Part shown: piece after piece, positions 5,093 through 23,590 of the stretch
Numbering within the stretch: position 1 is the stretch's first letter
Layout of the letters: each line of letters opens with the position of its first letter
From: Roseibacillus ishigakijimensis
GTDB taxonomy: Bacteria; Verrucomicrobiota; Verrucomicrobiia; Verrucomicrobiales; Akkermansiaceae
Direction of reading: 5' to 3'
DNA length: 64,000 nt
NCBI RefSeq assembly: GCF_016595415.1
Contig: NZ_JAENIO010000008.1
Span: 1-64,000 of the forward strand
Notes under the pieces: model-generated
Database searches by the model: none
What the model saw: only the letters and a program-made list of their open reading frames with translations
Told to the model about the DNA's origin: nothing
Program-made: the position numbers and the translations under genes

Positions 5093-6580
5093 TTAGCTAT
5101 TCCCCAAGAGAGCGAGAATGGGGGCGGGGTAGACGCCGAGGAAAATGATGAGCGCGGCCGCAGGGAAGACCACAGTTTTTGCCAGGAGGCTCAGGCGGAT
5201 TTCGGCCCCATCGGTGGCGGGGTTCCAGAACATGGCGCGGATGGCCTTGAAGTAGTAGTAGAATCCGGCGGCGACGCCGATGAAGCCCATCGCGATGGCC
5301 CACCAGAGTTGGCCATTGGCCACGGCGGCTTGGAAGACGTAGAGCTTGCCGAAGAAGCCCACCGTGAGCGGAAGTCCGGCAAGGGCGGCGAAGATGATGG
5401 TCAGGGCCCAGGCGAGGCCCGGCTGGCTTTTGCCGAGGCCGTGCAGGGCCTTGAGTTGCTCGCTGCCGGTGCTCTGGCTGATCGATTGCAGGGCAAAGAG
5501 CGCGGCGACGGTCATGAGAAGGTAGGTGGCGAGGTAGAAGCCCACCACCTGATAGGTAGAGAGGGCGTTGGCGCTTTCCCCCCGCCAAGCGGCAACCGCG
5601 AGGAGGAGGAAGCCGGCATTGGCGATGGAGGAGTAAGCGAGGAGACGCTTGAGATTGTTCTGCGCGATGGCGGCCAGATTGCCCACCAGCAAGGTGGCGG
5701 CGGCCAGGATGCCGAGGATGAAGATGGTCTTGTCGCGGGTGATTTCGTTGCTCAGGAAGGGCTCCAGGATACGCACCGCGACGATGAAACCCGCCGCCTT
5801 GGAACCGACCGAGAGAAAGGTGGTGGTGGGTGTGGGGGCCCCCTGGTAGACGTCGGGAATCCAGATGTGCATGGGCACGGCACCGACCTTGAAGGCAAGG
5901 GCGATGAGGATGAGGGAGAGGCCGAAGAGCAGGGCGGTGGTGTTCTGGGCCAGCCCGTTTTCCAAGAGAGCGGTGGGGCTGAGGACGAGGTTGAGGGTCT
6001 CCAGATTCATGGTGCCGGTGATTCCGTAAATCCAGGCGATGCCGTAGACGAGGAAGCCGGTGGAGAGGGCACCGAGGATGAGGTATTTCACGCCCGCTTC
6101 GAGAGAGCCGACATTGCGGCGCATGAAGGCGACGAGGACGTAGAAGGTGATGGTGGTGAGCTCCAGCGCGACGAAGGCCATGACGAGGTCTTTGGCGGAG
6201 GCCATCCACATCAGGCCTGCGCAAGCGAAGAGGGGAAGGGAGTAGAACTCGCCGGTGCCGTCCTCGGACTGGGGATTCTCGGTGAAGCGGGTCAGAACCT
6301 TGCGGTAATCAATGCCCATCAGGATGACGAGAGCAGTGATGACGAGGGCGAAGCCCTTGAAGAAAACGGCGCTATTGTCCACCGCGTAGAAGCGCTCCAG
6401 TTCGGGGCCGCTCACTTCTTTTTTGGCAAAAATTAGGAGGATGAGGGTGACTACGAGTCCGCAGAAGGAGAGCCAGCCGAGCGGGGCTTTCTTTTTCAGC
6501 GGGAAAAAGGCCTCCGCCAGCAGGACGACGAGTCCGAGCGCGACGACGATGACTTCGAGATAGGGTAAAGGAAGGGACAT
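5093..6580 (-). CDS. nuoN: NADH-quinone oxidoreductase subunit N
   Basis: NuoN is one of the three antiporter-like membrane subunits of complex I that couple quinone reduction to proton pumping. The 495-residue product is almost entirely transmembrane and carries the Proton_antipo_M pattern, including the region FVALELTTITFYVLVAF with its membrane glutamate and lysines in the later discontinuous helices. Length fits the family. It is the last gene of the nuo cluster on the minus strand, 23 bp after nuoM; no intrinsic terminator is obvious, and the palindrome cluster follows. Like the other nuo genes here, it lacks an evident Shine-Dalgarno sequence. Confidence 0.96.
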   Translation of the reverse strand: MSLPLPYLEVIVVALGLVVLLAEAFFPLKKKAPLGWLSFCGLVVTLILLIFAKKEVSGPELERFYAVDNSAVFFKGFALVITALVILMGIDYRKVLTRFTENPQSEDGTGEFYSLPLFACAGLMWMASAKDLVMAFVALELTTITFYVLVAFMRRNVGSLEAGVKYLILGALSTGFLVYGIAWIYGITGTMNLETLNLVLSPTALLENGLAQNTTALLFGLSLILIALAFKVGAVPMHIWIPDVYQGAPTPTTTFLSVGSKAAGFIVAVRILEPFLSNEITRDKTIFILGILAAATLLVGNLAAIAQNNLKRLLAYSSIANAGFLLLAVAAWRGESANALSTYQVVGFYLATYLLMTVAALFALQSISQSTGSEQLKALHGLGKSQPGLAWALTIIFAALAGLPLTVGFFGKLYVFQAAVANGQLWWAIAMGFIGVAAGFYYYFKAIRAMFWNPATDGAEIRLSLLAKTVVFPAAALIIFLGVYPAPILALLGNS

Positions 6581-6603
6581 GGCAGTGGTGGGCGGCGGAG
6601 AAA

Positions 6604-8115
6604 TTACTGGTTAACAGAGGCGGTGACAGCGGGCTTGCTGGCTTCGACGGGCGTGTTGAAAAGATTGAAGAAGAGATTGGGGTAAAGGCCAATGACGAGG
6701 AGGGCAACAGCGAGAAGGAGGGCAGGAATCTGCTCCTCGCGGCTGAGGTCACTGCGGGAGGTGGTGAGCTTGCTCTCGGGACCGTGGAAGATGTTGCGAA
6801 TGGCGCGCAGCATGTAGATGGCGGAAATGACGACGCCGAAGATGGCGATGATAGTGCCGATTTGAACTGCGCCTAAGGGCTCGCCGGGGGTCCAGTTGCG
6901 GAAGCCGGAGAGGAAAACGGCGGCTTCTCCCGCGAAGTTGGCCAGTCCGGGCAGGCCGATGGAAGCCATGCCAGCGAGGCCAAAAAGGAAGGCGAGGACG
7001 GGAGCGGACTTGGCGAGGCCGCCGAGCTCTTCCATGCGCAGACTGCCGGTCTTGCTCTCGATGCGGTCCGAGAGGGCAAAGAGGAGGGCGATGGAGACCC
7101 CGTGACCGAACATCAGAATGACGGCGGCAGGGAGGGCAATGGCGTTGGCTTCGGTGGAGCCTGCCGCGATGAGGGCTGCGATAGCGAGGAAAACGTAGCC
7201 CATGTGCATCACCGAGGAATTGGCCAGCATGTTGTCGAGGCGCTTCTGGTTGATGGTGATGAATCCGACCCAGAGGATGTTACCGAGCAAGAGGACGATG
7301 AGGGCAACCAGCCAGTGCTGCATTCCTTCCGAAACGAGGGGGTAGAGGCGGAGGAGGCCGTAGAGACCGAATTTCTTGAGCACTCCGGCATGGAGCATGG
7401 AGACCGGGGTGGGGGCGGAGGCGTAGGCGGGGGCGGCCCAGGAGTGGAAGGGAAAGAGGGAAACGAGCACGCCGAAGCCCACCAGCAGGAGGGCGGCGAT
7501 GCCAATCTGGTCCTGGGGTTCGATGGAACCCGCGAGGATATCGCTGAAGAGGAAACTTTGCGCGTTGGTGGCGGCTACCAGCCAGAGGAGACCGGCGAGG
7601 AGGATGATGGAGCCAAAGGCGAGGTAAATGGTGATTTTCCAGGCCGCAGCCTTGCGATCGCCTTTGCCGAGAAGACCAATCATGAGGAAAGTCGGGATGA
7701 GGGCGAGCTCGTGGAAGGCGTAGAAAAAGAAGAGGTCGGTGGAAAGGAAGGCCCCGACGGCCCCGAGGGAGATGAGCAGGATGGAGGAGAACCAGAGGCG
7801 TTCGCGGCCTGCCGGGCACTTGCCGGCGAGAACGGCGGCGATGGTGACCAGGGTGGAGAGCAGGAGCATCACCACCGTCATGCCATCGGCGAGCCCGAGG
7901 GAGAGGGAGATGGCGGGTTTCTCCAGCACCGGCAGGGAGAAGGCGGCCAGCTGGGGGTCGCGGGTCTGGCCCCAGATGATGGAGGCCACCAGGGCGAGAC
8001 CGAAGTTGCCGATAGCGGCGAGGAGGGCGATGCTACGGGCGGGACCTCCGGCGATGATGGCCACCAAGCCTGCGAGAGGGATGCCGAGGAGAAAGATAAG
8101 GGTCTGGTCGATCAT
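6604..8115 (-). CDS. nuoM: NADH-quinone oxidoreductase subunit M
   Basis: NuoM is an antiporter-like proton-pumping subunit of complex I. The 503-residue product is polytopic throughout and shows the family core: YAFHELALIPTFLMIG with the conserved membrane glutamate, WKITIYLAFGS, and PFHSWAAPAYASAPTPVSM followed by GVLKKFGLYGLLRL with the conserved lysine. Start ATG at 8115 gives MIDQTLIF. It lies 34 bp after nuoL and 23 bp before nuoN, with no inverted-repeat element in either gap. Confidence 0.96.
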   Translation of the reverse strand: MIDQTLIFLLGIPLAGLVAIIAGGPARSIALLAAIGNFGLALVASIIWGQTRDPQLAAFSLPVLEKPAISLSLGLADGMTVVMLLLSTLVTIAAVLAGKCPAGRERLWFSSILLISLGAVGAFLSTDLFFFYAFHELALIPTFLMIGLLGKGDRKAAAWKITIYLAFGSIILLAGLLWLVAATNAQSFLFSDILAGSIEPQDQIGIAALLLVGFGVLVSLFPFHSWAAPAYASAPTPVSMLHAGVLKKFGLYGLLRLYPLVSEGMQHWLVALIVLLLGNILWVGFITINQKRLDNMLANSSVMHMGYVFLAIAALIAAGSTEANAIALPAAVILMFGHGVSIALLFALSDRIESKTGSLRMEELGGLAKSAPVLAFLFGLAGMASIGLPGLANFAGEAAVFLSGFRNWTPGEPLGAVQIGTIIAIFGVVISAIYMLRAIRNIFHGPESKLTTSRSDLSREEQIPALLLAVALLVIGLYPNLFFNLFNTPVEASKPAVTASVNQ

Positions 8116-8149
8116 GACGGGTGCGGAAAGGTTGGAAGAAGAAAAGGGC

Positions 8150-9964
8150 TTACTTCACAAAGACAGTGAGGAAAATGACGAGGACCACACCGACGCCCAT
8201 GAGGAGGGAGTAGGTCTGGAGGGAGCCGGATTGGGCGCGGTTGAAGAGTTGGCCGAGGACGGCGGAGCAGCGCACGAGGCCACCGACGAGAAGTCCGTTG
8301 ATGAGGAACTCGTCGAGAAACTCAATCACCGCCGCTTTGACATTGATGGCGTATTTGACCACGTAGCCGTAGCCTTCATCGACGTAGAAGCGGTTGGCGA
8401 AGAGCTTGGAGACGGGATTGTTGGCCAGGGGATCGCTCTTTTTGTTGAAATAGAAGACAAAGGCGGCAGCGGCACCAAGGAGGAAGGCCGCGACCGAGGC
8501 CCCCAGGGGCACGCCGAGCTCAATGAGATGCTTGGGTGCATAGTAAGCGGGCGAGAAGAGCTTGGCGATCTCGGGGTATCCGGCAAAGACGGATGGCACG
8601 GCCAGGATGACGAGAGGCACGAACATGAGGGGACCGACTTCCTTGGCCTCCTCGGAATGTTTGTCGCGGGCTTCGCCGAGGAAAACGACGATGAAGAGGC
8701 GGCCCATGTAGAAGGTGGTCATCGCCGCCACCGCAGCCACGAGTCCGAAGAGAACTTTGTTCTCGAGCCAGGTCTCGTGGAGAATCTGCTCCTTGGAGAA
8801 GAAGCCGGCGGTGAAGGGGAATCCGGCCAAGGCGAGCGTGCCCAGCGCGAAGGTGATGGCGGTGATGGGCATCTTTTTGAAGAGGCCGCCCATTTTCCAG
8901 ATGTTCTGCTCGTGGTGGCAGGCGTAGATGACGGCGCCGGAGCCGAGGAAGAGGAGGGCCTTGAACCAGGCGTGGGTGTAGAGGTGGAACATCGCTCCCT
9001 CGGTGGAGTGACCGTGGGCGATGCCGAGCATGAGCACCATGTAGCCGAGCTGGGAGAGGGTCGAGTAGGCGAGGATTTTCTTAATGTCCGACTGCTGGGT
9101 CGCCATCAGGGCGGCGATGAGAGAGGTGAATCCGCCGAGGTAGGCGATGGTGTCGGTGGACCATTGCGGGAAGCCCTCGAAGCCGACCGAGATGAAAACG
9201 CGGGCCATCATGTAGACCCCGGCCGCGACCATGGTAGCGGCGTGGATAAGGGCGGAAACCGGGGTGGGGCCTTCCATCGCGTCGGGCAACCAGACGTGGA
9301 GAGGGGCTTGCGCGGACTTACCAATGGCCCCGCAGAAGACGCAGAGCAGCGCGGCCCCGAGGATGCCGGCCGAGAGTCCGGTGGGCAGTTCCATTTCCCC
9401 AAAGGTCAGGGTGCCGGTGATGCCCCAGAGCATGAGGATGCCGACCATGAAGCCCCAGTCGCCGATGCGGTTGACGCAAAAGGCTTTCTTGGCCGCGTCG
9501 GCGGCGGACTCCTTGGTGAACCAGTGGCCGATGAGAAGATAGGAGGAGAGACCCACGAGTTCCCAGAAGATGAACATCATCAGGAAGTTGTCTGCCAGCA
9601 CGATGCCGGTCATGGAGAACATGAAGAGGGAAAGGCCACAGAAGTAGCGGGCCTTGGACTCATCCTTGGCCATGTAGGCTAGCGAGAAGACATGAACGAG
9701 GGTGCCCACTCCGGTGACCACCAGCATCATTTTGGTGGAGAGGGGGTCGAGGAGAAGGCCGATATTGACGTGGAAGTCACCAAAGCTGGCCCAGGCGAAA
9801 TGGGGGTTGGCTTCTTTACCGAGGAAGAGAAGAGTCAGAATGAGAGTCGCAACAGCTGAACCCGTGGAAACCAGGGAAGAGATGAAGGCATTCTTTTTGA
9901 GACCGAGATGAATCGCGGCCGCGCTGAGGAGAGGAAGGAGGAGGAGAAACCAGGCGAGATGCAT
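8150..9964 (-). CDS. nuoL: NADH-quinone oxidoreductase subunit L
   Basis: NuoL is the distal antiporter-like subunit of complex I and bears the long lateral amphipathic helix. The 604-residue protein has the N-terminal Proton_antipo_N region (FSLAYMAKDESKARYF), the core VGLSSYLLIGHWFTKE and PLHVWLPDAMEGPTPVSALIHAATMVAAGVYM, and a C-terminal polytopic tail. Its start codon lies 9 bp from the arm of the GxxExxY-bearing inverted-repeat element, which separates it from nuoK. Upstream of the ATG no Shine-Dalgarno sequence is seen. Confidence 0.97.
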   Translation of the reverse strand: MHLAWFLLLLPLLSAAAIHLGLKKNAFISSLVSTGSAVATLILTLLFLGKEANPHFAWASFGDFHVNIGLLLDPLSTKMMLVVTGVGTLVHVFSLAYMAKDESKARYFCGLSLFMFSMTGIVLADNFLMMFIFWELVGLSSYLLIGHWFTKESAADAAKKAFCVNRIGDWGFMVGILMLWGITGTLTFGEMELPTGLSAGILGAALLCVFCGAIGKSAQAPLHVWLPDAMEGPTPVSALIHAATMVAAGVYMMARVFISVGFEGFPQWSTDTIAYLGGFTSLIAALMATQQSDIKKILAYSTLSQLGYMVLMLGIAHGHSTEGAMFHLYTHAWFKALLFLGSGAVIYACHHEQNIWKMGGLFKKMPITAITFALGTLALAGFPFTAGFFSKEQILHETWLENKVLFGLVAAVAAMTTFYMGRLFIVVFLGEARDKHSEEAKEVGPLMFVPLVILAVPSVFAGYPEIAKLFSPAYYAPKHLIELGVPLGASVAAFLLGAAAAFVFYFNKKSDPLANNPVSKLFANRFYVDEGYGYVVKYAINVKAAVIEFLDEFLINGLLVGGLVRCSAVLGQLFNRAQSGSLQTYSLLMGVGVVLVIFLTVFVK

Positions 9965-9973
9965 GTGAGTTGG

Positions 9974-10008
9974 TTTTGGACAGAATTAACGGAATGAAAC
10001 AGAATTTT
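9974..10008 (+). repeat. Left 35-bp arm of the GxxExxY element
   Basis: Begins TTTTGGACAGAATTAACG and ends AACAGAATTTT. It differs at three positions from the inverted copy at 10410-10444. The TAA stop of the GxxExxY gene (9986-9988, read on the minus strand) falls inside this arm. Confidence 0.9.
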
Positions 10009-10408
10009 GCTCTGTGGAAGAGGGACGGTATTGGCGAAATTTTTTCTTAAACTGCAAACTTTGCGCTCCGAAATTGAGGAGGAGTCCTTCGTCGAGCTTG
10101 GTTGCCGTCAGGTAATTGACGAGTTGGACCTCATGGGCAGCAACGAGGTTCTGGACGGACTTCAATTCTACGATAAGTGTTTCTTCAACCACGATATCGG
10201 CTGTGAATTGTCCAGCAAGTTGGCGTTTATAGAAGACATCGAGATGCTTCTGCCGCTCGAACGAAATGCCGGCCATCTCGAGTTCAATGCAAAGAGAGTT
10301 TTCATACACGGACTCTAAAAATCCAGAGCCTAGTTCCGAATGAACAGACATGGCCAGACCGATAACCTTGCCTGCAAGGTCATATTGCTGCTCAGCTGGT
10401 CTGTTCAT
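9986..10408 (-). CDS. GxxExxY protein (PD-(D/E)XK nuclease-like)
   Basis: The 140-residue product carries the naming motif G-F-L-E-S-V-Y (GxxExxY) after an N-terminal helix, then a core with ADIVVEETLIVELKSV, which supplies the D...E-x-K residues of the PD-(D/E)XK nuclease superfamily (PDDEXK_3 group), and ends ...LLLNFGAQSLQFKK. Function of the family is not established; members are multicopy in some genomes and often sit in odd genomic contexts. I choose the ATG at 10408, just inside the right inverted-repeat arm. An upstream ATG at 10462 would force the arm itself to be translated as a TELTELN-type peptide. The gene interrupts nuoK-nuoL and is flanked by 35-bp inverted repeats. Confidence 0.88.
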   Translation of the reverse strand: MNRPAEQQYDLAGKVIGLAMSVHSELGSGFLESVYENSLCIELEMAGISFERQKHLDVFYKRQLAGQFTADIVVEETLIVELKSVQNLVAAHEVQLVNYLTATKLDEGLLLNFGAQSLQFKKKFRQYRPSSTEQNSVSFR

Positions 10409-10409
10409 A

Positions 10410-10444
10410 AAAATTCTGTTCAATTCGGTTAATTCTGTCCAAAA
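10410..10444 (-). repeat. Right 35-bp arm of the GxxExxY element
   Basis: Inverted copy of 9974-10008 with three mismatches. It ends 7 nt from the stop codon of the PLDc_N gene. Transcribed as part of the nuo message, the two arms could pair across the whole GxxExxY gene. Confidence 0.9.
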
Positions 10445-10451
10445 AAACAAG

Positions 10452-10679
10452 CTACCTTCCAATCTCGGCCTTGCGTTGGGGGCGGCGGACGAAGAGATAA
10501 ATCAGTGAGCCAACCCAGCCGGCGAGGGCGATGACCAGAATCCAGATGAGCTTGTCGTTTCCTTCCGAAGGCTCGTTTTGGGCACAATCGACGAGGCTCC
10601 AGACCCACAGTGCGAAGAGAGGGAGCGCAGTGAGTAAGATGAAGATGATGAAGAGTTCTTGGCCTCCGAAACTTAGCAT
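10452..10679 (-). CDS. Small PLDc_N-domain membrane protein
   Basis: A 75-residue protein with two membrane segments (about 8-30 and 44-64), separated by LVDCAQNEPSEGNDKLIW and closed by a basic tail. This is the PLDc_N (phospholipase D-nuclease N-terminal-like) pattern, in which two helices flank a short loop with conserved W-x-D. Members often occur alone, without any phospholipase domain; function is unknown. It lies between nuoK and the GxxExxY element in the same direction, so it is probably cotranscribed with nuo, though a weak terminator-like hairpin precedes it. It is not a known complex I subunit. Confidence 0.75.
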   Translation of the reverse strand: MLSFGGQELFIIFILLTALPLFALWVWSLVDCAQNEPSEGNDKLIWILVIALAGWVGSLIYLFVRRPQRKAEIGR

Positions 10680-10722
10680 GGCTAGTGGGCTGAATCGGTT
10701 TGGGATGGGTCGAGAGGGAGCA

Positions 10723-10746
10723 CGGATAAAAAAAATCTAGGATTTT
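10723..10746 (-). terminator. Weak terminator-like hairpin after nuoK
   Basis: On the minus strand AAAATC and GATTTT pair around a 3-nt loop right at the nuoK stop, followed by a T run (A run at 10728-10735 on the plus strand). The stem is only six A/T-rich pairs, so it may act as a partial attenuator within the operon at most. Confidence 0.35.
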
Positions 10747-11075
10747 CAGCCTCGCATGGACTTGAGGTCTTCGACGTTCACTGTCTGGCGGGCGCGGTAG
10801 AGAGCCACGATGATGGCGAGCCCGACCGCGACTTCGGCAGCGGCGACGGTGATGATGAAGAAGACGAGCACCTGGCCATCGTAGTCGGGCAGACCGTCGA
10901 AGGTGCTCAGGTTGTAGCGGGAAAAGGCAACGAGGGTCAGGTTGGCGGCGGCCAGCATCATTTCCAGACACATGAAAATGACGATGATGTTGCGGCGCAC
11001 AATCACGCCCGCCAGGCCGATGGCAAAGAGAATGCCGCTGACCATGAGGTATTCGTGGAGAGAAACAGGGTTCAC
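10746..11075 (-). CDS. nuoK: NADH-quinone oxidoreductase subunit K
   Basis: NuoK is a small three-helix membrane subunit of complex I in the proton path. The 109-residue protein has the conserved pattern [23 protein letters not shown] with the membrane glutamate, then LTLVAF and a second buried glutamate in [19 protein letters not shown] choose a GTG start at 11075, because the family begins with a short segment before the first helix and [14 protein letters not shown] matches it; the ATG at 11045 would trim ten residues. The longer open frame reaching 11246 overlaps nuoJ and is not credible. It follows nuoJ by 25 bp. Confidence 0.92.
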
Positions 11076-11100
11076 GATGAGAATTGTCCGGTGAGAGTTG

Positions 11101-11745
11101 TCAGTTGTTGGGGCTGCCTTTCTTGGAAAGAACGACCACGCCAATGGTGGCCACCACGAGGAGCACACCCATGATTTGGAGGGGTAGGTTGTGGCTGGTG
11201 CCGTGGCCATGACCGGCGAAGACGGTGCGGCCGATGAGGTGGACATCGGGCAGTTGCTTGGCTTCGAGGTTGGCTTGGATTTTGTTCACCGGCACATCCT
11301 CGGGCTTAAGCTCTTCGCCTTCCTTGAGAGTGTCCGCATAGCGGGCGGTGGCGAGTTCCTGTTGCTTGGTCGCAGCGGTGGCGAGGTCGAGTTCCTGATG
11401 CTCGGGAAGTTGGGCGGTCTGCAAGACCCCCAAGATCTGAAGGAGAAGAATGGCGGGCACGATGGCTCCGGCTGCCAGGTTGGCGGGCTTCCACACGCGC
11501 TTTTCTTCCGATTTGAGGTCGAGAAGCATGATGATGAAGATGAAGAGCACCATGATCGCGCCGGCATAGACCAGGATTTGCATGATGCCGACGAAGTAGG
11601 CGTTGAGGCCGATGAAGAGCGCGGCAAGTCCCACGAAAGCACCCACCATGGAGAGGGCGCTGGAGACCGGATTCTTGAAAATCACCATCAGGCAGGCCGA
11701 GGCGACGGCGAGGAGGCTGAAGAGGTAGAAGAAAATCTGAGGCAT
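11101..11745 (-). CDS. nuoJ: NADH-quinone oxidoreductase subunit J
   Basis: NuoJ is a membrane subunit with the distorted helix that links quinone chemistry to the proton channels. The 214-residue product has five membrane segments and the family hallmark [24 protein letters not shown]. Between helices 4 and 5 is a hydrophilic stretch of about 75 residues, longer than in many homologues, containing [15 protein letters not shown]. Start ATG at 11745. It is separated from nuoI by a short inverted-repeat element and from nuoK by 25 bp. Confidence 0.94.
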
Positions 11746-11763
11746 GGGAAAGTTCTTTGAATT

Positions 11764-11882
11764 GGGACAGAATTTACAAAATGAAACAGAATTGACGGAG
11801 AGTGTGCGGACTAGCTGTTGTGGGTTTTATGAGTTCCTTTTCAGGTTTTTAAGTTCTGTGCAATTCTGTGAATTCTGTCGGG
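11764..11882. mobile_element. Gene-free inverted-repeat element in the nuoI-nuoJ gap
   Basis: Arms at 11764-11793 and 11851-11882 are inverted copies (22 of 28 core positions match) and share the ACAGAATT-based sequence of the GxxExxY element. About 57 bp lie between them, with no coding content. On the transcribed minus strand the element starts 7 nt after the nuoI stop and ends 18 nt before the nuoJ start. It looks like an empty or internally deleted relative of the 9974-10444 element. Confidence 0.65.
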
Positions 11883-11889
11883 AAAGGTT

Positions 11890-12456
11890 TTATTTCAGCT
11901 CGTTCCACTTGTTGACGAGACCGACGCGTTTGCCGCCGATCTCGTAGAGCTTTTCCTTGTCGTGGACCATCTCGTCGCGGGAGAGGCCGGTGATGGCGTA
12001 GTCTTTGCGGAGGAAGATGGCTTGCTCGGGGCAGACTTCTTCGCACATGCCGCAGTAGATGCAGCGGATCATGTCGATATCGAACTCCTTGGGGCGTTTC
12101 TCGACCTTGGCCCACTCGTCGTCACTGGGGATTTCGCCCGGCACGATTTTGATGGCTTTGGGCGGACAAATAAACTCGCAGAGTTGGCAGGAGACACAGC
12201 GCTCGCGGTCCTGCTCGTCGGTGACGAGAGCGGGGGCCCCGCGGTAATACTCGGGCAACTGGTCGTCCCACTTGGTCTCGGGATATTGCATGGTGACCCC
12301 CAGTCCAGAGGACTTGAGGGTGTCGGCCCCGCGGGATTTGCCGGTGAGGGACTTCACGGCGTGGCCGAGGGTGACCATGAAGCCCTTGAAGATAGCGGGG
12401 AGGGTGAGCTTCTCGCTGGTGCTTAGTTTCGGGCGCTGGAGTTTGACGACGGACAT
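11890..12456 (-). CDS. nuoI: NADH-quinone oxidoreductase subunit I
   Basis: NuoI carries the two 4Fe-4S clusters (N6a and N6b) that pass electrons towards N2 in complex I. Both ferredoxin motifs are intact in the 188-residue product: CVSCQLCEFICPPKAI and CIYCGMCEEVCPEQAI, with the usual crossed CP ligands. The N-terminal amphipathic part (LTLPAIFKGFMVTLGH) anchors it to the membrane arm. It sits between nuoH and nuoJ, with an inverted-repeat element in each gap. Confidence 0.96.
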   Translation of the reverse strand: MSVVKLQRPKLSTSEKLTLPAIFKGFMVTLGHAVKSLTGKSRGADTLKSSGLGVTMQYPETKWDDQLPEYYRGAPALVTDEQDRERCVSCQLCEFICPPKAIKIVPGEIPSDDEWAKVEKRPKEFDIDMIRCIYCGMCEEVCPEQAIFLRKDYAITGLSRDEMVHDKEKLYEIGGKRVGLVNKWNELK

Positions 12457-12476
12457 AGGAAGATTATTTGGGAGAA

Positions 12477-12595
12477 GGACAGAATGGACAAAATTTAACA
12501 GAATTGACTAGAGGTGAGTTGCAAGGGATTGATTGGGCTTGGTCAATTGCTGAACGGGACCTTTGAATTCTGTTTCATTGGGTAAATTCTGTCTG
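12477..12595. mobile_element. Gene-free inverted-repeat element in the nuoH-nuoI gap
   Basis: Arms at 12477-12509 and 12565-12595 are inverted relatives built on the same ACAGAATT units as the element at 9974-10444. The 55-bp core differs from that of 11764-11882 and codes for nothing visible. It begins 4 nt after the nuoH stop and ends 20 nt before the nuoI start. In RNA it would form a roughly 30-bp imperfect stem. Confidence 0.62.
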
Positions 12596-12599
12596 AAAA

Positions 12600-13925
12600 T
12601 TAAACTTTGGCAGGTTCGCCTTTGGCTGGGGCGAGGCGTTTGCCGGGACCGACCTGGTTGTCGATGGTTTTGGCCAGGTAGAAAACAAAGGCGGAGAACA
12701 GGCCGAGAGCCACCAGCGAGCCGAGGAATTGCGGACCGCTCAGGATGGGGCGGGCGAGGAGGAGGGCGGTGAGGACGATGTTGATGAGGGCCAATTCGAA
12801 GAAGACCACCCAGCCGAGCTTCATGAGCTGGTCGTAGCGGAAACGGGGGATGGACCAGCGCACGAGGATGAAGAAGAGGATGAAGGCCACCACCTTGGTG
12901 AGGAAACAACCCATGTGGATGAGGGAGGAGACCCAGAAGGGGAAGGCGCCATTTTCGCCCTCGGCGAGCAATTTGGCATCGAGGCCGAAGGGCAGGGACC
13001 AGCCGCCGAGGAAGAGGGTGACAATGAGGGCGGAGCCGATGACCATGGCCGCGTATTCGCCGAGGAAAAAGAGGGCGAACTTCATGGAAGAATACTCGGT
13101 GTGGTAACCGCCGACGAGTTCAGTTTCGCATTCCGCGAGGTCGAAGGGGGTGCGGTTGGTCTCCGCGAAAATGGAGATGGTGAAGATGATGAAGGCCAGC
13201 ATCATGGGCACCCAGAGGACCCATTGCTGGAGGCCGCCGGCTTCCCAGTAAGCGCCACTCCAGATCATGCCGCCCTCGTTCCAGAGCGGGAGGAGGAGCC
13301 AGCCATTGACGGATTGCTCCATCACAATGCGGCCGAGGTTGAGTTCGCCAAAGACGAGGAGCACGGGGATGAGGGAAAGGCCGAGGGCGATTTCGTAGGA
13401 AATCATTTGCGCGGAAGCACGGATGCCGCCCATGAAGGGGAACTTGGAGTTGGAGGCCCAACCGGCGATGGTGATTCCGTAGACGGCGAGGGAGGAGATG
13501 GCGAAAATGAAGAGGGGGCCGACATTGACATCGGCGATGGCCATGGAGAGGGGCATGTCGCGTCCTTCCACCGCAATCGGGCTGGCAAAGGGGATGACCG
13601 CGATGGTGATCAGCGAGGGCACCATGGTCATGCAGGGAGCGAGCCAGAAGAAGCTCTTGCGCACATGACCGGGGGTGAAGTCTTCTTTGAGAATGAACTT
13701 GAGTCCATCGGCGATGGGCTGGGTGAGACCGCCGAGGGGGAGCTTGATGTCGTTCTTAAACCCAAGGATGGAAGTGGGAATCATGGTCCGGTTCGGTCCC
13801 ACGCGGTCCTGAATGATGGCGGAAAAACGGCGTTCGGCGTAGACCGAGTAAGCCACAAAGGTCAGCACGAGGCCAAAGTAGAGCCCCATCTTGATGAGGG
13901 TGGTGAGAAGGAAGACGGTGTCCAT
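12600..13925 (-). CDS. nuoH: NADH-quinone oxidoreductase subunit H
   Basis: NuoH holds the quinone-access chamber between the peripheral and membrane arms of complex I. The 441-residue product has conserved features: AERRFSAIIQDRVGPNR in the first loop, GLTQPIADGLKFILKEDFTP, and the acidic loop ETNRTPFDLAECETELVGGYHTEY (split here only for reading). It is about 100 residues longer than the classic form, mainly through an extra loop near residues 215-235 and a C-terminal helix with a Lys/Pro-rich tail. Start ATG at 13925. Confidence 0.95.
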   Translation of the reverse strand: MDTVFLLTTLIKMGLYFGLVLTFVAYSVYAERRFSAIIQDRVGPNRTMIPTSILGFKNDIKLPLGGLTQPIADGLKFILKEDFTPGHVRKSFFWLAPCMTMVPSLITIAVIPFASPIAVEGRDMPLSMAIADVNVGPLFIFAISSLAVYGITIAGWASNSKFPFMGGIRASAQMISYEIALGLSLIPVLLVFGELNLGRIVMEQSVNGWLLLPLWNEGGMIWSGAYWEAGGLQQWVLWVPMMLAFIIFTISIFAETNRTPFDLAECETELVGGYHTEYSSMKFALFFLGEYAAMVIGSALIVTLFLGGWSLPFGLDAKLLAEGENGAFPFWVSSLIHMGCFLTKVVAFILFFILVRWSIPRFRYDQLMKLGWVVFFELALINIVLTALLLARPILSGPQFLGSLVALGLFSAFVFYLAKTIDNQVGPGKRLAPAKGEPAKV

Positions 13926-13946
13926 TTTGTTTGGAAATAAATTGAG

Positions 13947-14048
13947 AACCGCTGATTAGCGCGGATGAACGCAGATTGCCGGTGCTTGAAGTGGAAAATT
14001 CAGAAGGGAAAATTGAAAATCGGCGTTCATCAGCGTTTATCTGCGGTC
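13947..14048. mobile_element. Inverted-repeat element of a second type in the nuoG-nuoH gap
   Basis: Arms at 13947-13977 and 14018-14048 are inverted copies (25 of 31 positions), with GCGGATGAACGCAGAT in one and the matching GATGAACGCCGAT on the opposite strand in the other. The 40-bp core is A-rich. The arm sequence is unlike the ACAGAATT family, but placement is the same: 6 nt after the nuoG stop and 21 nt before the nuoH start. Similar INADERR-coding repeats are familiar around GxxExxY genes in other genomes; that link is recalled, not tested. Confidence 0.6.
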
Positions 14049-14054
14049 GGGGCG

Positions 14055-15800
14055 TCAGCCCACAATTTCGCGGTTTTTGATGCGTTGGCGTTCTTTTTCG
14101 AGGAGAGGGATGGTTTCTCCGGTTTCGGTGATGGGGACTCCGAGGTCGCCGATGCTCTGCAGACTGTGATCGGCGAATTCTTTCACTTCGCTGGCGAGCA
14201 GGGTGAAGACATCCTGAATCATCTGCGGCTTGGGTGCGCCTCCGTCGAGTTTCTCCAAAAGGCCGGCGAGCAGTTCCCAGTCGGGAGAGGCGTCGCCGGG
14301 AGGGAGGATGGCGCGGTTGAGGCGCTGGAGGCGGCCGGTGATGTTGACCATGGAGCCGCGCTTTTCGGCAAAGCTTGCTCCGGGTAGGACGACGTCGGCT
14401 TCTCCGGCGGTGGGATTGGAAAGGATGTCGAGGACGACGAGATGCTCGAGTTTGGCGAGATCGGCCGTGGTGAATCCGTGCTCGGTGAGGTCTTCCCCGA
14501 TGACGAGAGCGGCTTTGATTTTGCCTGACGCGATGTCCTCTTTGACGGCATCGAAATTGGCGAAGAGTTTTTCGCCGAGAATGAGCTGGGCCCCGGTGGT
14601 ATTGGGGTTGCGGTCCGCGCTGATGAGTTTGCCATCGGATTCGCCCTTGCGCTCGACGAGGGCGAGATTTTCGGTGCCGAGGGCTTCCTTGATTTTTTTG
14701 ATGAGGAGAAGCTCTTCGTTGGTGGCGCGGGGAGAGGTGATGAGGGCCACTTCCTCGCCAGCGAGTCCCTGGAAGCCAGCGGCAGCTTGCGCGAGGGCGT
14801 CGGCCTGGGTGGTGGGCTGGTGTTGGCCGCCGTTCTTGACGAGGGCGGAGGTGAGGCGGCGGTCGGAGTGGATTTCGTGGAAAGCCAAGCGGTGGCTGTC
14901 GGGCATCCAAGCGGAATTGACCTCGTTGTTCTCGCGGGGGGTGATGCGGAAAATCTCGTTGCCCCGGGTCCAGATCGTGATGTTGCAGCCGGTGCCGCAG
15001 TTTACGTCGATGGAGGGGGTTTCTTTGAGGAACCAGACTCGCATTTGGAAGCGGAAGTCGTTGCTGGTGAGAGCTCCCACTGGGCAGATGTCTACGGTGT
15101 TGAGGCCGTAGTTGTTGTCCAGCTTGCGTCCGGGATGGACGGCAAGGGTGGTGTGGGTGCCACGATCGGTGAAGCCGAGAACGGGATCATCAGCGACTTC
15201 GTCCATGAAGCGGATGCAGCGGCTGCACATGATGCAACGCTCGTCGTCGAGGCGGATGCGGGGGCCGATGTCGACGTTCTTCGGCTTCTTGACCTTGTTT
15301 TCCTGAAAGCGGGAGAGGCCTTTGCCGTGTTCGACGGAGAATTCCTGCAAGGAGCATTCTCCGGCCTGGTCACAGATGGGGCAATCGAGAGGGTGGTTGA
15401 TGAGGAGAAACTCCATCACGCCCTCGCGGCATTTTTCCACCAGTTCGCCGCCGGTGCGGATGCCCATGTTTTCGGCCACGGTATTGGCGCAGGCGATGAC
15501 GGGGCGGGGCATCCAGCCGATTTCCTGATAGCCTTCCTCGTTGTATTCCGGGTCCTGGCCGGGGGCTAGGCGAGGGGGCATGCCCATCTGCACTAGGCAC
15601 ATGCGGCAGTTGCCGGGGGAGGAAAGTTTGGGGTGGTAGCAATAGTGCGGGACCTCTTTCTCAGCCTGCTTGCAGGCTTCGATCATGCGGGTTCCCTTCG
15701 GGACTTGAATCCAATGCCCGTCGATCTGGACGTTGACCAAGCCTTTCTCGGCGGCGAGGTCCTTGGGCAAAGTTGGGGTGGTCGTGGCAGAATCGCTCAT
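14055..15800 (-). CDS. nuoG: NADH-quinone oxidoreductase subunit G (short form)
   Basis: NuoG carries the iron-sulfur chain leading from NuoF into complex I. The 581-residue protein has an N-terminal 2Fe-2S ferredoxin domain (cysteines in YCYHPKLSSPGNCRMC), the His/Cys 4Fe-4S motif CDQAGECSLQ, the CIMCSRCIRF motif, and a shortened molybdopterin-oxidoreductase-like domain ending with a region like a partial catalytic fold. It lacks the long C-terminal part of the E. coli protein. It is the first gene of this cluster; nuoA-F must lie elsewhere. A CRP/FNR-type palindrome is 51 bp upstream of the ATG. Confidence 0.93.
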   Translation of the reverse strand: MSDSATTTPTLPKDLAAEKGLVNVQIDGHWIQVPKGTRMIEACKQAEKEVPHYCYHPKLSSPGNCRMCLVQMGMPPRLAPGQDPEYNEEGYQEIGWMPRPVIACANTVAENMGIRTGGELVEKCREGVMEFLLINHPLDCPICDQAGECSLQEFSVEHGKGLSRFQENKVKKPKNVDIGPRIRLDDERCIMCSRCIRFMDEVADDPVLGFTDRGTHTTLAVHPGRKLDNNYGLNTVDICPVGALTSNDFRFQMRVWFLKETPSIDVNCGTGCNITIWTRGNEIFRITPRENNEVNSAWMPDSHRLAFHEIHSDRRLTSALVKNGGQHQPTTQADALAQAAAGFQGLAGEEVALITSPRATNEELLLIKKIKEALGTENLALVERKGESDGKLISADRNPNTTGAQLILGEKLFANFDAVKEDIASGKIKAALVIGEDLTEHGFTTADLAKLEHLVVLDILSNPTAGEADVVLPGASFAEKRGSMVNITGRLQRLNRAILPPGDASPDWELLAGLLEKLDGGAPKPQMIQDVFTLLASEVKEFADHSLQSIGDLGVPITETGETIPLLEKERQRIKNREIVG

Positions 15801-23324: not shown

Positions 23325-23388
23325 CGGTAGGGATGTGATTCGGTAGGGATGTAATTCGGTAGGGATGTAATTCGGTAGGGATGTAATT
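23325..23388 (+). repeat. Four tandem 16-bp repeats after glnS
   Basis: The unit CGGTAGGGATGTAATT is repeated four times without spacers; the first copy has one change (GTGATT). A fifth copy starts the same way and then runs into the palindrome at 23389. There is no spacer pattern, so it is not a CRISPR array. Confidence 0.93.
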
Positions 23389-23421
23389 CGGTAGGGATGC
23401 CTCAGCGAGGCATCCCTACCG
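23389..23421. repeat. Perfect 15-bp palindrome with 3-nt loop
   Basis: Arms CGGTAGGGATGCCTC and GAGGCATCCCTACCG enclose AGC. The left arm continues the 16-bp tandem unit, which suggests the tandem repeats grew from this palindrome by slippage. The same core occurs at 4932-4952 and 23521-23541. Confidence 0.92.
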
Positions 23422-23590
23422 AGGCATCCGCAGGAGGGGGGCGGTGCCCGAAAAAGGGAATCGTGGTGTCCAGCAGGAAGACCGTCGTTGTTGGATGCGG
23501 TTGCGAGGGGGTGATTCGGCGGATGCCTCAGCGGGGCATCCCTACCGATCAAAGAGAGAAGGAACTCTGTGAAAGGGTCCTGCTGGCGGC
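23422..23590. repeat. Remainder of the palindrome array before the ABC-F gene
   Basis: A related palindrome at 23521-23541 has arms GGATGCCTC and GGGGCATCC (one wobble) around AGC, embedded in a 34-bp block nearly identical to 4925-4958. No gene is seen. The array separates two convergent genes, glnS and the ABC-F ATPase. Confidence 0.75.

Follow-up and report, generated by a model that had tools for sequence, protein, structure and literature searches.

The GxxExxY gene that lies between two inverted arms in the nuo operon of Roseibacillus ishigakijimensis forms with them a unit that has the appearance of a very small mobile element, of a kind not described before. Most GxxExxY genes that we sampled are bounded in this way, gene-free copies of the unit exist, the same nuo gaps have been occupied repeatedly, the protein and its arms change together and the catalytic residues are conserved. 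The window referred to below is the whole stretch of DNA analyzed, 64,000 nucleotides from one end of contig NZ_JAENIO010000008.1.

An arm-bounded gene and gene-free arm pairs in one operon

The host operon, nuoN-M-L-K-J-I-H-G, occupies positions 5093..15800 of the window on the minus strand (ORFs; tblastn against 60 relatives) and holds four elements, E1-E4, in its gaps. E1 (9974..10444, minus strand) is a complete unit of arm, GxxExxY gene and arm in the nuoK/nuoL gap, 471 bp in length. The arm at the 3′ end of the gene (9974..10008; TTTTGGACAGAATTAACGGAATGAAACAGAATTTT) has three ACRGAAT-type words, which recur inverted in the arm at the 5′ end (10410..10444); the arms, each of 35 nt and spaced by 401 nt, pair at 32 of 35 positions (91%). 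The sole ORF within E1 is the GxxExxY coding sequence (9986..10408, minus strand; 140 aa; TIGR04256, PF13366; PD-(D/E)XK), with its ATG (10408, minus strand) 2 bp inside one arm and its TAA (9986-9988) within the other. The local inverted-repeat score was 29, and none of 186 shifted control intervals from related loci reached a score of 20. The arm coordinates, codon positions and control scores confirm an earlier note on this DNA, which had described the gene and its 35-bp inverted repeats as one 471-bp unit; its phrase 'fitted exactly' holds for E1, and elsewhere the matched gene domain usually lies 10-130 nt from the arms. E1 has no DDE transposase of the kind that marks a classical insertion sequence, and no known RNA family matched the site near a gathering score.

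The window protein matched the TIGR04256 (GxxExxY) model at 138.3 bits (cut-off 35) and PF13366 (PDDEXK_3) at 133.7 (cut-off 22). Its domain carries the motifs G19xxE22xxY25, D61, E71xK73 and Q85xxxY89; in an alignment of 42 sequences E22, D61, K73, Q85 and Y89 were invariant and E71 was conserved in at least 90%. The solved fold nearest to its AF2 model (pLDDT 96) was Cas4 SSO0001 (Foldseek; VIA Z 9.9), followed by AddAB, lambda exonuclease and Holliday junction resolvases. Judged by motifs and modelled fold, both of RecB/Cas4 type, the protein is a predicted PD-(D/E)XK nuclease, in agreement with the fold given in the earlier note. It is not a Cas4: there is a single Cys in its 140 aa, its locus is the nuo operon and the PADLOC Cas4 models matched it only at E values of at least 0.012. 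Purifying selection was strong (dN 0.07 vs. dS 0.68 in the closest pair; dN/dS about 0.1 in pairs with unsaturated dS).

The three other elements, absent from the earlier note, are gene-free arm pairs. E2, in the nuoI/nuoJ gap (11766..11879; arms 11766-11793 and 11852-11879), and E3, in the nuoH/nuoI gap (12478..12593; arms 12478-12505 and 12566-12593), bear E1-type words as inverted pairs, of which shuffles predict none. E4, in the nuoG/nuoH gap (13948..14047), has other words (CGCTGAT/CGCGGAT/CGCAGAT), and CGCAGAT arms flank a GxxExxY gene in a congener (G001). E2 and E3 are MITE-like, being gene-free copies with matching ends in a genome that also holds the gene. Their loops were also considered as remnants of a GxxExxY gene, with similarity that did not go beyond shuffles (p 0.995 and 0.25).

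The matching gene-free copies that the earlier note had proposed to look for do therefore exist, and they follow the gene: arm matches occurred in 16 of 98 genomes, 12 of which hold a gene of the same clade, vs. 21 of the 98 overall (Fisher p=4e-7). In the genome of the window (G000), 23 arm matches accompany one clade gene, and there are 14 in G051; G014 has 12 without a close clade gene. Outside nuo in G000, solo arms of the window type form head-to-tail arrays about 45-110 bp apart rather than inverted pairs (C44:40596-40780, C77:42602-42761, C110:7710-7781, C148:95140-95322, C11:39480-39562 and C115:50515-50590), some of which alternate ACAGGAT-type with ACAGAAT-type units. A separate inverted repeat, TCGGTAGGGATGCCTCAGCGAGGCATCC, lies at 23388-23548 of the window, with 105 nt between arms that are partly palindromic themselves.

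Distribution of the units and occupation of nuo gaps

All four GxxExxY genes in the genome of the window have flanking inverted repeats, with words that differ from gene to gene (CGCAAAGAC..., CGCAGAGAC..., CGCAAAAAGGACG...). One of these genes (L004, C22:72744-73088) is decaying, with an internal TAG between arms that are still visible, and its homologue in congener G001 (L106, C5:178143-178487; 87% identity) has an open frame. Among 98 relatives, 70 have a GxxExxY gene. In the layout test, a locus passed if its best inverted repeat with one arm on either side of the gene scored at least 16; arms were found around 85% of 95 GxxExxY genes from related genomes vs. 1.6% of 186 control intervals shifted by 900 bp. 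A wider scan of 84,980 species genomes, queried with close homologues of the window protein since the 42-protein alignment was too divergent, gave 80 loci from about ten phyla by record title (Verrucomicrobia, Acidobacteria, Planctomycetes, Bacteroidetes, Proteobacteria, KSB1, Hydrogenedentes, Sumerlaeota, Chloroflexi, Nitrospirae and others). Here, 88% of 76 usable loci passed vs. 1.4% of 140 controls, and most loci had ACAGGAT- or ACAGAAT-type arms. The expectation that most GxxExxY genes would have flanking inverted repeats was borne out in both samples; a majority of genes without repeats, which the earlier note took to speak against its idea, was seen in neither. Close homologues were rare on plasmids (8 of 72,556), and a search for phage or viral carriage turned up neither a phage record nor, in IMG/VR, any relative of the query clade.

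At five loci (L021, L061, L085, L101 and L243) a complete gene-free hairpin stands on each side of the GxxExxY gene, so that the arms are nested two deep. At others, in G051 (L280, L296, L306, L028), G014 (L279, L295), G057 (L285) and G043 (L282), a second shared palindromic stretch, GCCTGCGGCGC / GCGCCGCAGGC, prolongs the arms, and the units look as though they sat inside another repeat.

We read the nuo operon in 61 genomes with HMMs built from an earlier locus set, in which some loci were not oriented; direction-dependent tests were made on oriented locus sets, and inverted-repeat detection is independent of orientation. In or upstream of nuo there were 14 GxxExxY genes and 21 genes for four-helix-bundle proteins, distributed over six internal gaps and the position before nuoG, and all 35 coding elements pointed in the operon direction. 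The 33 elements nearest nuo, 27 of them with clear inverted repeats, were spread over 21 genomes. The nuoK/nuoL gap, short in most genomes surveyed, holds GxxExxY units of ACAGAAT or ACAGGAT type in G000 and G001 and of CACGGAT or CACTGAT type in G036 and G058; in G016 and G067 its occupant is a four-helix-bundle unit, and in G022 it is a gene-free pair. In G051 (L171) the same gap has another palindromic repeat, GGAGTGCGGTGGCTCGACACCGC, and a similar stretch occurs in G001 (L284).

Differences were also found within the genus. In G003 the nuoH/nuoI and nuoI/nuoJ gaps are both empty. G001 likewise has no element in nuoH/nuoI and has a four-helix-bundle unit in nuoI/nuoJ, and in G000 the two gaps contain E3 and E2, respectively. 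The nuoK/nuoL units of G000 and G001 are likely to be separate insertions or a replacement, because their GxxExxY proteins are 58% identical and the NuoI proteins 91% identical. Since orthologous nuo gaps in relatives are empty, or have other elements or gene-free arms, insertion into these gaps is, on this comparison of genomes, recurrent. A strong hairpin was present in 12 of 230 gene-free gaps vs. none of 230 control segments inside genes.

The units lie between stop and start codons. Throughout the collinear gaps, they were co-directed rather than opposed to their neighbours in a ratio of 100:11, by a rough rule of ORF length, and 47 of 170 units had one neighbour gene read in the opposite direction. 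If the arms are read as DNA, co-direction would reflect selection for read-through expression or an insertion bias inseparable from it.

Decay was seen in G032, whose copy of the G040 element has lost 120 bp by internal deletion; these two genomes had been considered as a filled and empty site pair, and the difference turned out to be this deletion. With one genome per species, no near-identical pair with and without an element was found, nor any transposition event or excision product; in the Akkermansia-like group (g3) all species have the four-helix-bundle locus, and hence no empty site. There was no consistent excess of 2-10 bp direct repeats outside 59 anchored arm pairs that would indicate target duplication (best z 2.5 over many tests).

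Arm words and the proteins between the arms

Each GxxExxY arm consists of a word of 8-10 nt, repeated imperfectly in a row of about three copies, the commonest shift within an arm being 9 nt and most shifts 8-10 nt. Word periodicity set 34 of 60 and 39 of 52 arms apart from their own shuffles (p<=0.05), and agreement between words within an arm was above chance (56 arms observed vs. 26 expected, with a maximum of 37 in 1000 shuffles). The outer edges often read TTTTR-GACAG. A single arm consists of direct words and is not self-complementary; it pairs only with the other arm. We considered an RNA hairpin as the form in which the arms are kept, and found that differences between the two arms of a unit had no bias to G-U-compatible changes, either in GxxExxY units (54 vs. 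86 and 50 vs. 48) or in four-helix-bundle units (25 vs. 48). Because the arm differences have no G-U preference, the arms are probably recognized as DNA rather than kept as an RNA hairpin.

Over 70 loci, protein identity rose with the similarity of the arms (r=0.457, 0 of 2000 permutations), and the correlation remained without the pairs that have homologous flanks (r=0.373, 0 of 2000 permutations). The association was sharpest at domain residue 2. Among the 41 loci of the ACARRAT family, T or S at this residue goes with G before the AT of the word (25 loci) and A, C or P with A (16 loci), with zero exceptions. Residue 2 was also the best column in 57 loci with other words, with T or S in 37 of 40 G-words and A or C in 10 of 17 A-words, and over all 98 loci it reached z=26, the median for all columns being 0.6. 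A held-out count by stricter rules came to 36 vs. 3 and 4 vs. 8 (Fisher p=1e-4). The word letter changes 16 times on a tree from which the residue-2 column was omitted, and in 7 independent pairs on supported branches residue 2 moves with the letter in 4.9 and in the opposite sense in 0.1. Residue 88 also gave strong counts against the last word letter, an association that is confounded by descent because the tree has only 2 changes.

Because residue 2 predicts the word letter in two separate word families, the GxxExxY protein probably reads its own arms. The link is a correlation and not a contact map, but if the protein did not read the words it would be difficult to account for. The earlier note had suggested that the protein might act on its own terminal hairpin; action on the terminal repeat fits the covariation of arm and protein, and the RNA hairpin as the form acted upon does not fit the lack of G-U preference among the excess arm mismatches.

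The four-helix-bundle genes share the layout. Their proteins (TIGR02436) are the S23 family of 23S rRNA intervening sequences (PMC4990558). In the related genomes, 77% of 30 four-helix-bundle loci are arm-bounded vs. 0% of 56 controls, the arms have a period of 7 in 17 of 17 cases, and protein and arms are again correlated (r=0.62, 0 of 2000). Inspection of four-helix-bundle loci L108-L137 and nuo operons L138-L197 showed units that are mostly arm-bounded, with 7-nt words, in protein-coding gaps. The earlier note had remarked on a likeness to 23S intervening sequences, which is strengthened by this arm-bounded family in the same genomes; none of 40 related loci scanned lies in an rRNA.

A proposed mobile cassette and its alternatives

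Several known systems resemble the GxxExxY units in part. REPtrons and TIRtrons, in which RAYT and TIR-associated tyrosine transposases go with REP or TIR repeats (PMC3116915, PMC3733652), likewise have one small nuclease gene between inverted repeats, numerous extragenic repeats without a gene, a gene type that matches the repeat type and movement inferred mainly by comparison. Their enzyme is, however, an HUH tyrosine enzyme, and the REP itself is a small hairpin with a GTAG tag, whereas E1 has a PD-(D/E)XK protein and arms of three direct words that form no hairpin of their own, which places it outside this class. E1 shares with the 23S intervening sequences (PMC4990558) a unit of 400-500 bp, terminal inverted repeats and a single small ORF that fills it, but GxxExxY units lie in mRNA operons rather than in 23S rRNA, encode another protein fold and have arms apparently kept as DNA words, not as an RNA stem. 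With the Cas4/RecB nucleases (SSO0001, AddAB, lambda exonuclease) the protein has in common the fold and the motif order GxxE, D, ExK, QxxxY; in contrast to them it is a domain of about 113 residues alone, lacks the Fe-S cysteine set and has no CRISPR or recombination partner adjoining its gene. A PD-(D/E)XK mobilizer of inverted-repeat elements, rather than a DDE or HUH enzyme, has been suggested for Thiomargarita MITEs with the PD-(D/E)XK_2 protein 'YhgA' (PMC4853749), although this is another PD-(D/E)XK family and the MITEs have 10-bp direct repeats, none of which were detected for GxxExxY units. Finally, the Beggiatoaceae TAACTGA heptamers (PMC4679880) occur in intergenic gaps as short direct words immediately before start codons, with period 7 as in four-helix-bundle arms, but they are direct repeats with no linked gene and would be related to the four-helix-bundle family at most.

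We lean towards the explanation that E1 is an autonomous member, and E2-E4 gene-free members, of a minimal mobile cassette family, each cassette being one gene between two inverted arms with about three copies of a short word per arm. The Cas4/RecB-like PD-(D/E)XK nuclease would recognize the arm words as DNA, as the arm-protein covariation and residue-letter correlation suggest, and would cut at or near the arms. Host repair or replication would then place a copy of the unit or, in trans, of a gene-free arm pair in a new gap between cistrons. Cassettes landing in the operon direction would be kept and expressed by read-through, in keeping with their co-direction, and internal deletion, of which one decayed pair is an example, may leave the gene-free arm pairs behind. 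We infer these steps, insertion chemistry included. Against this reading stand the E2 and E3 loops without gene homology, the solo arms of G000 that are not inverted pairs outside nuo, the absence of close homologues from phage records and IMG/VR and their rarity on plasmids, and the fact that neither movement nor target duplication was seen. Our confidence in the mechanism is not higher mainly because the four-helix-bundle family uses the same layout, and we know of no nuclease activity for its protein; nuclease action may for that reason not be the common principle of the cassettes.

Binding of the arms would suffice for both the covariation and the residue-letter correlation, and solo arms and head-to-tail arrays adjoin other genes in G000. 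These observations would suit a protein that binds its arms as operators and controls its own gene and the neighbours of solo arms, the units not being self-moving and the nuclease fold serving for binding or rare cleavage. We consider this unlikely, as it accounts neither for an inverted arm at each end of the gene nor for the recurrent unrelated insertions in the same nuo gaps, the wide phylogenetic scatter or the invariant catalytic residues. Two unrelated proteins in one architecture would be in line with a shared mover or a homing-like role, and the units could be mobilized by another enzyme while the GxxExxY or four-helix-bundle protein is a protective or stabilizing cargo that, for example, cuts arm-free alleles. 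The lack of a transposase-type target duplication is compatible with this, but a cargo need not track the arm word residue by residue, and there is no other gene inside the units; we think it quite unlikely. Slightly less likely still, in our judgement, is an RNA reading, in which the two arms would pair into a long RNA stem that encloses the message and is cleaved by RNase III or the GxxExxY protein; the unit would be a tolerated mRNA insert that may spread through RNA. The layout shared with the family of the 23S intervening sequences (PMC4990558), the strict co-direction with the operon and the location between stop and start codons would all agree with an RNA stem, but the arm differences lack the G-U bias, over a quarter of the units have an oppositely read neighbour, the closest folds are DNA nucleases and the loci scanned were outside rRNA.

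As a tentative extension of the mobile cassette reading, bacterial chromosomes may contain a broad class of selfish cassettes: small proteins unrelated to one another (the GxxExxY nuclease, the four-helix-bundle S23 family) would each lie between inverted arms of periodic words, read the words by a residue-letter code and spread into intercistronic gaps with no transposase, target duplication or phage carrier; we would regard this as possible rather than probable. No earlier description of arm-bounded GxxExxY units or of the arm words was found in the literature searched, which excluded bioRxiv and took in few subscription papers; two papers name GxxExxY, at least one of them in passing.

GxxExxY (PF13366/TIGR04256) is, to our knowledge, a large family to which no function has been assigned. 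That function becomes directly testable through a cognate DNA site, a candidate specificity residue and the structure of the cassette. The nature of the 23S intervening sequences is a long-standing puzzle, which the arm-bounded four-helix-bundle genes may explain: through this link, the intervening sequences would be one branch of a family of arm-bounded cassettes that lie mostly between protein-coding cistrons.
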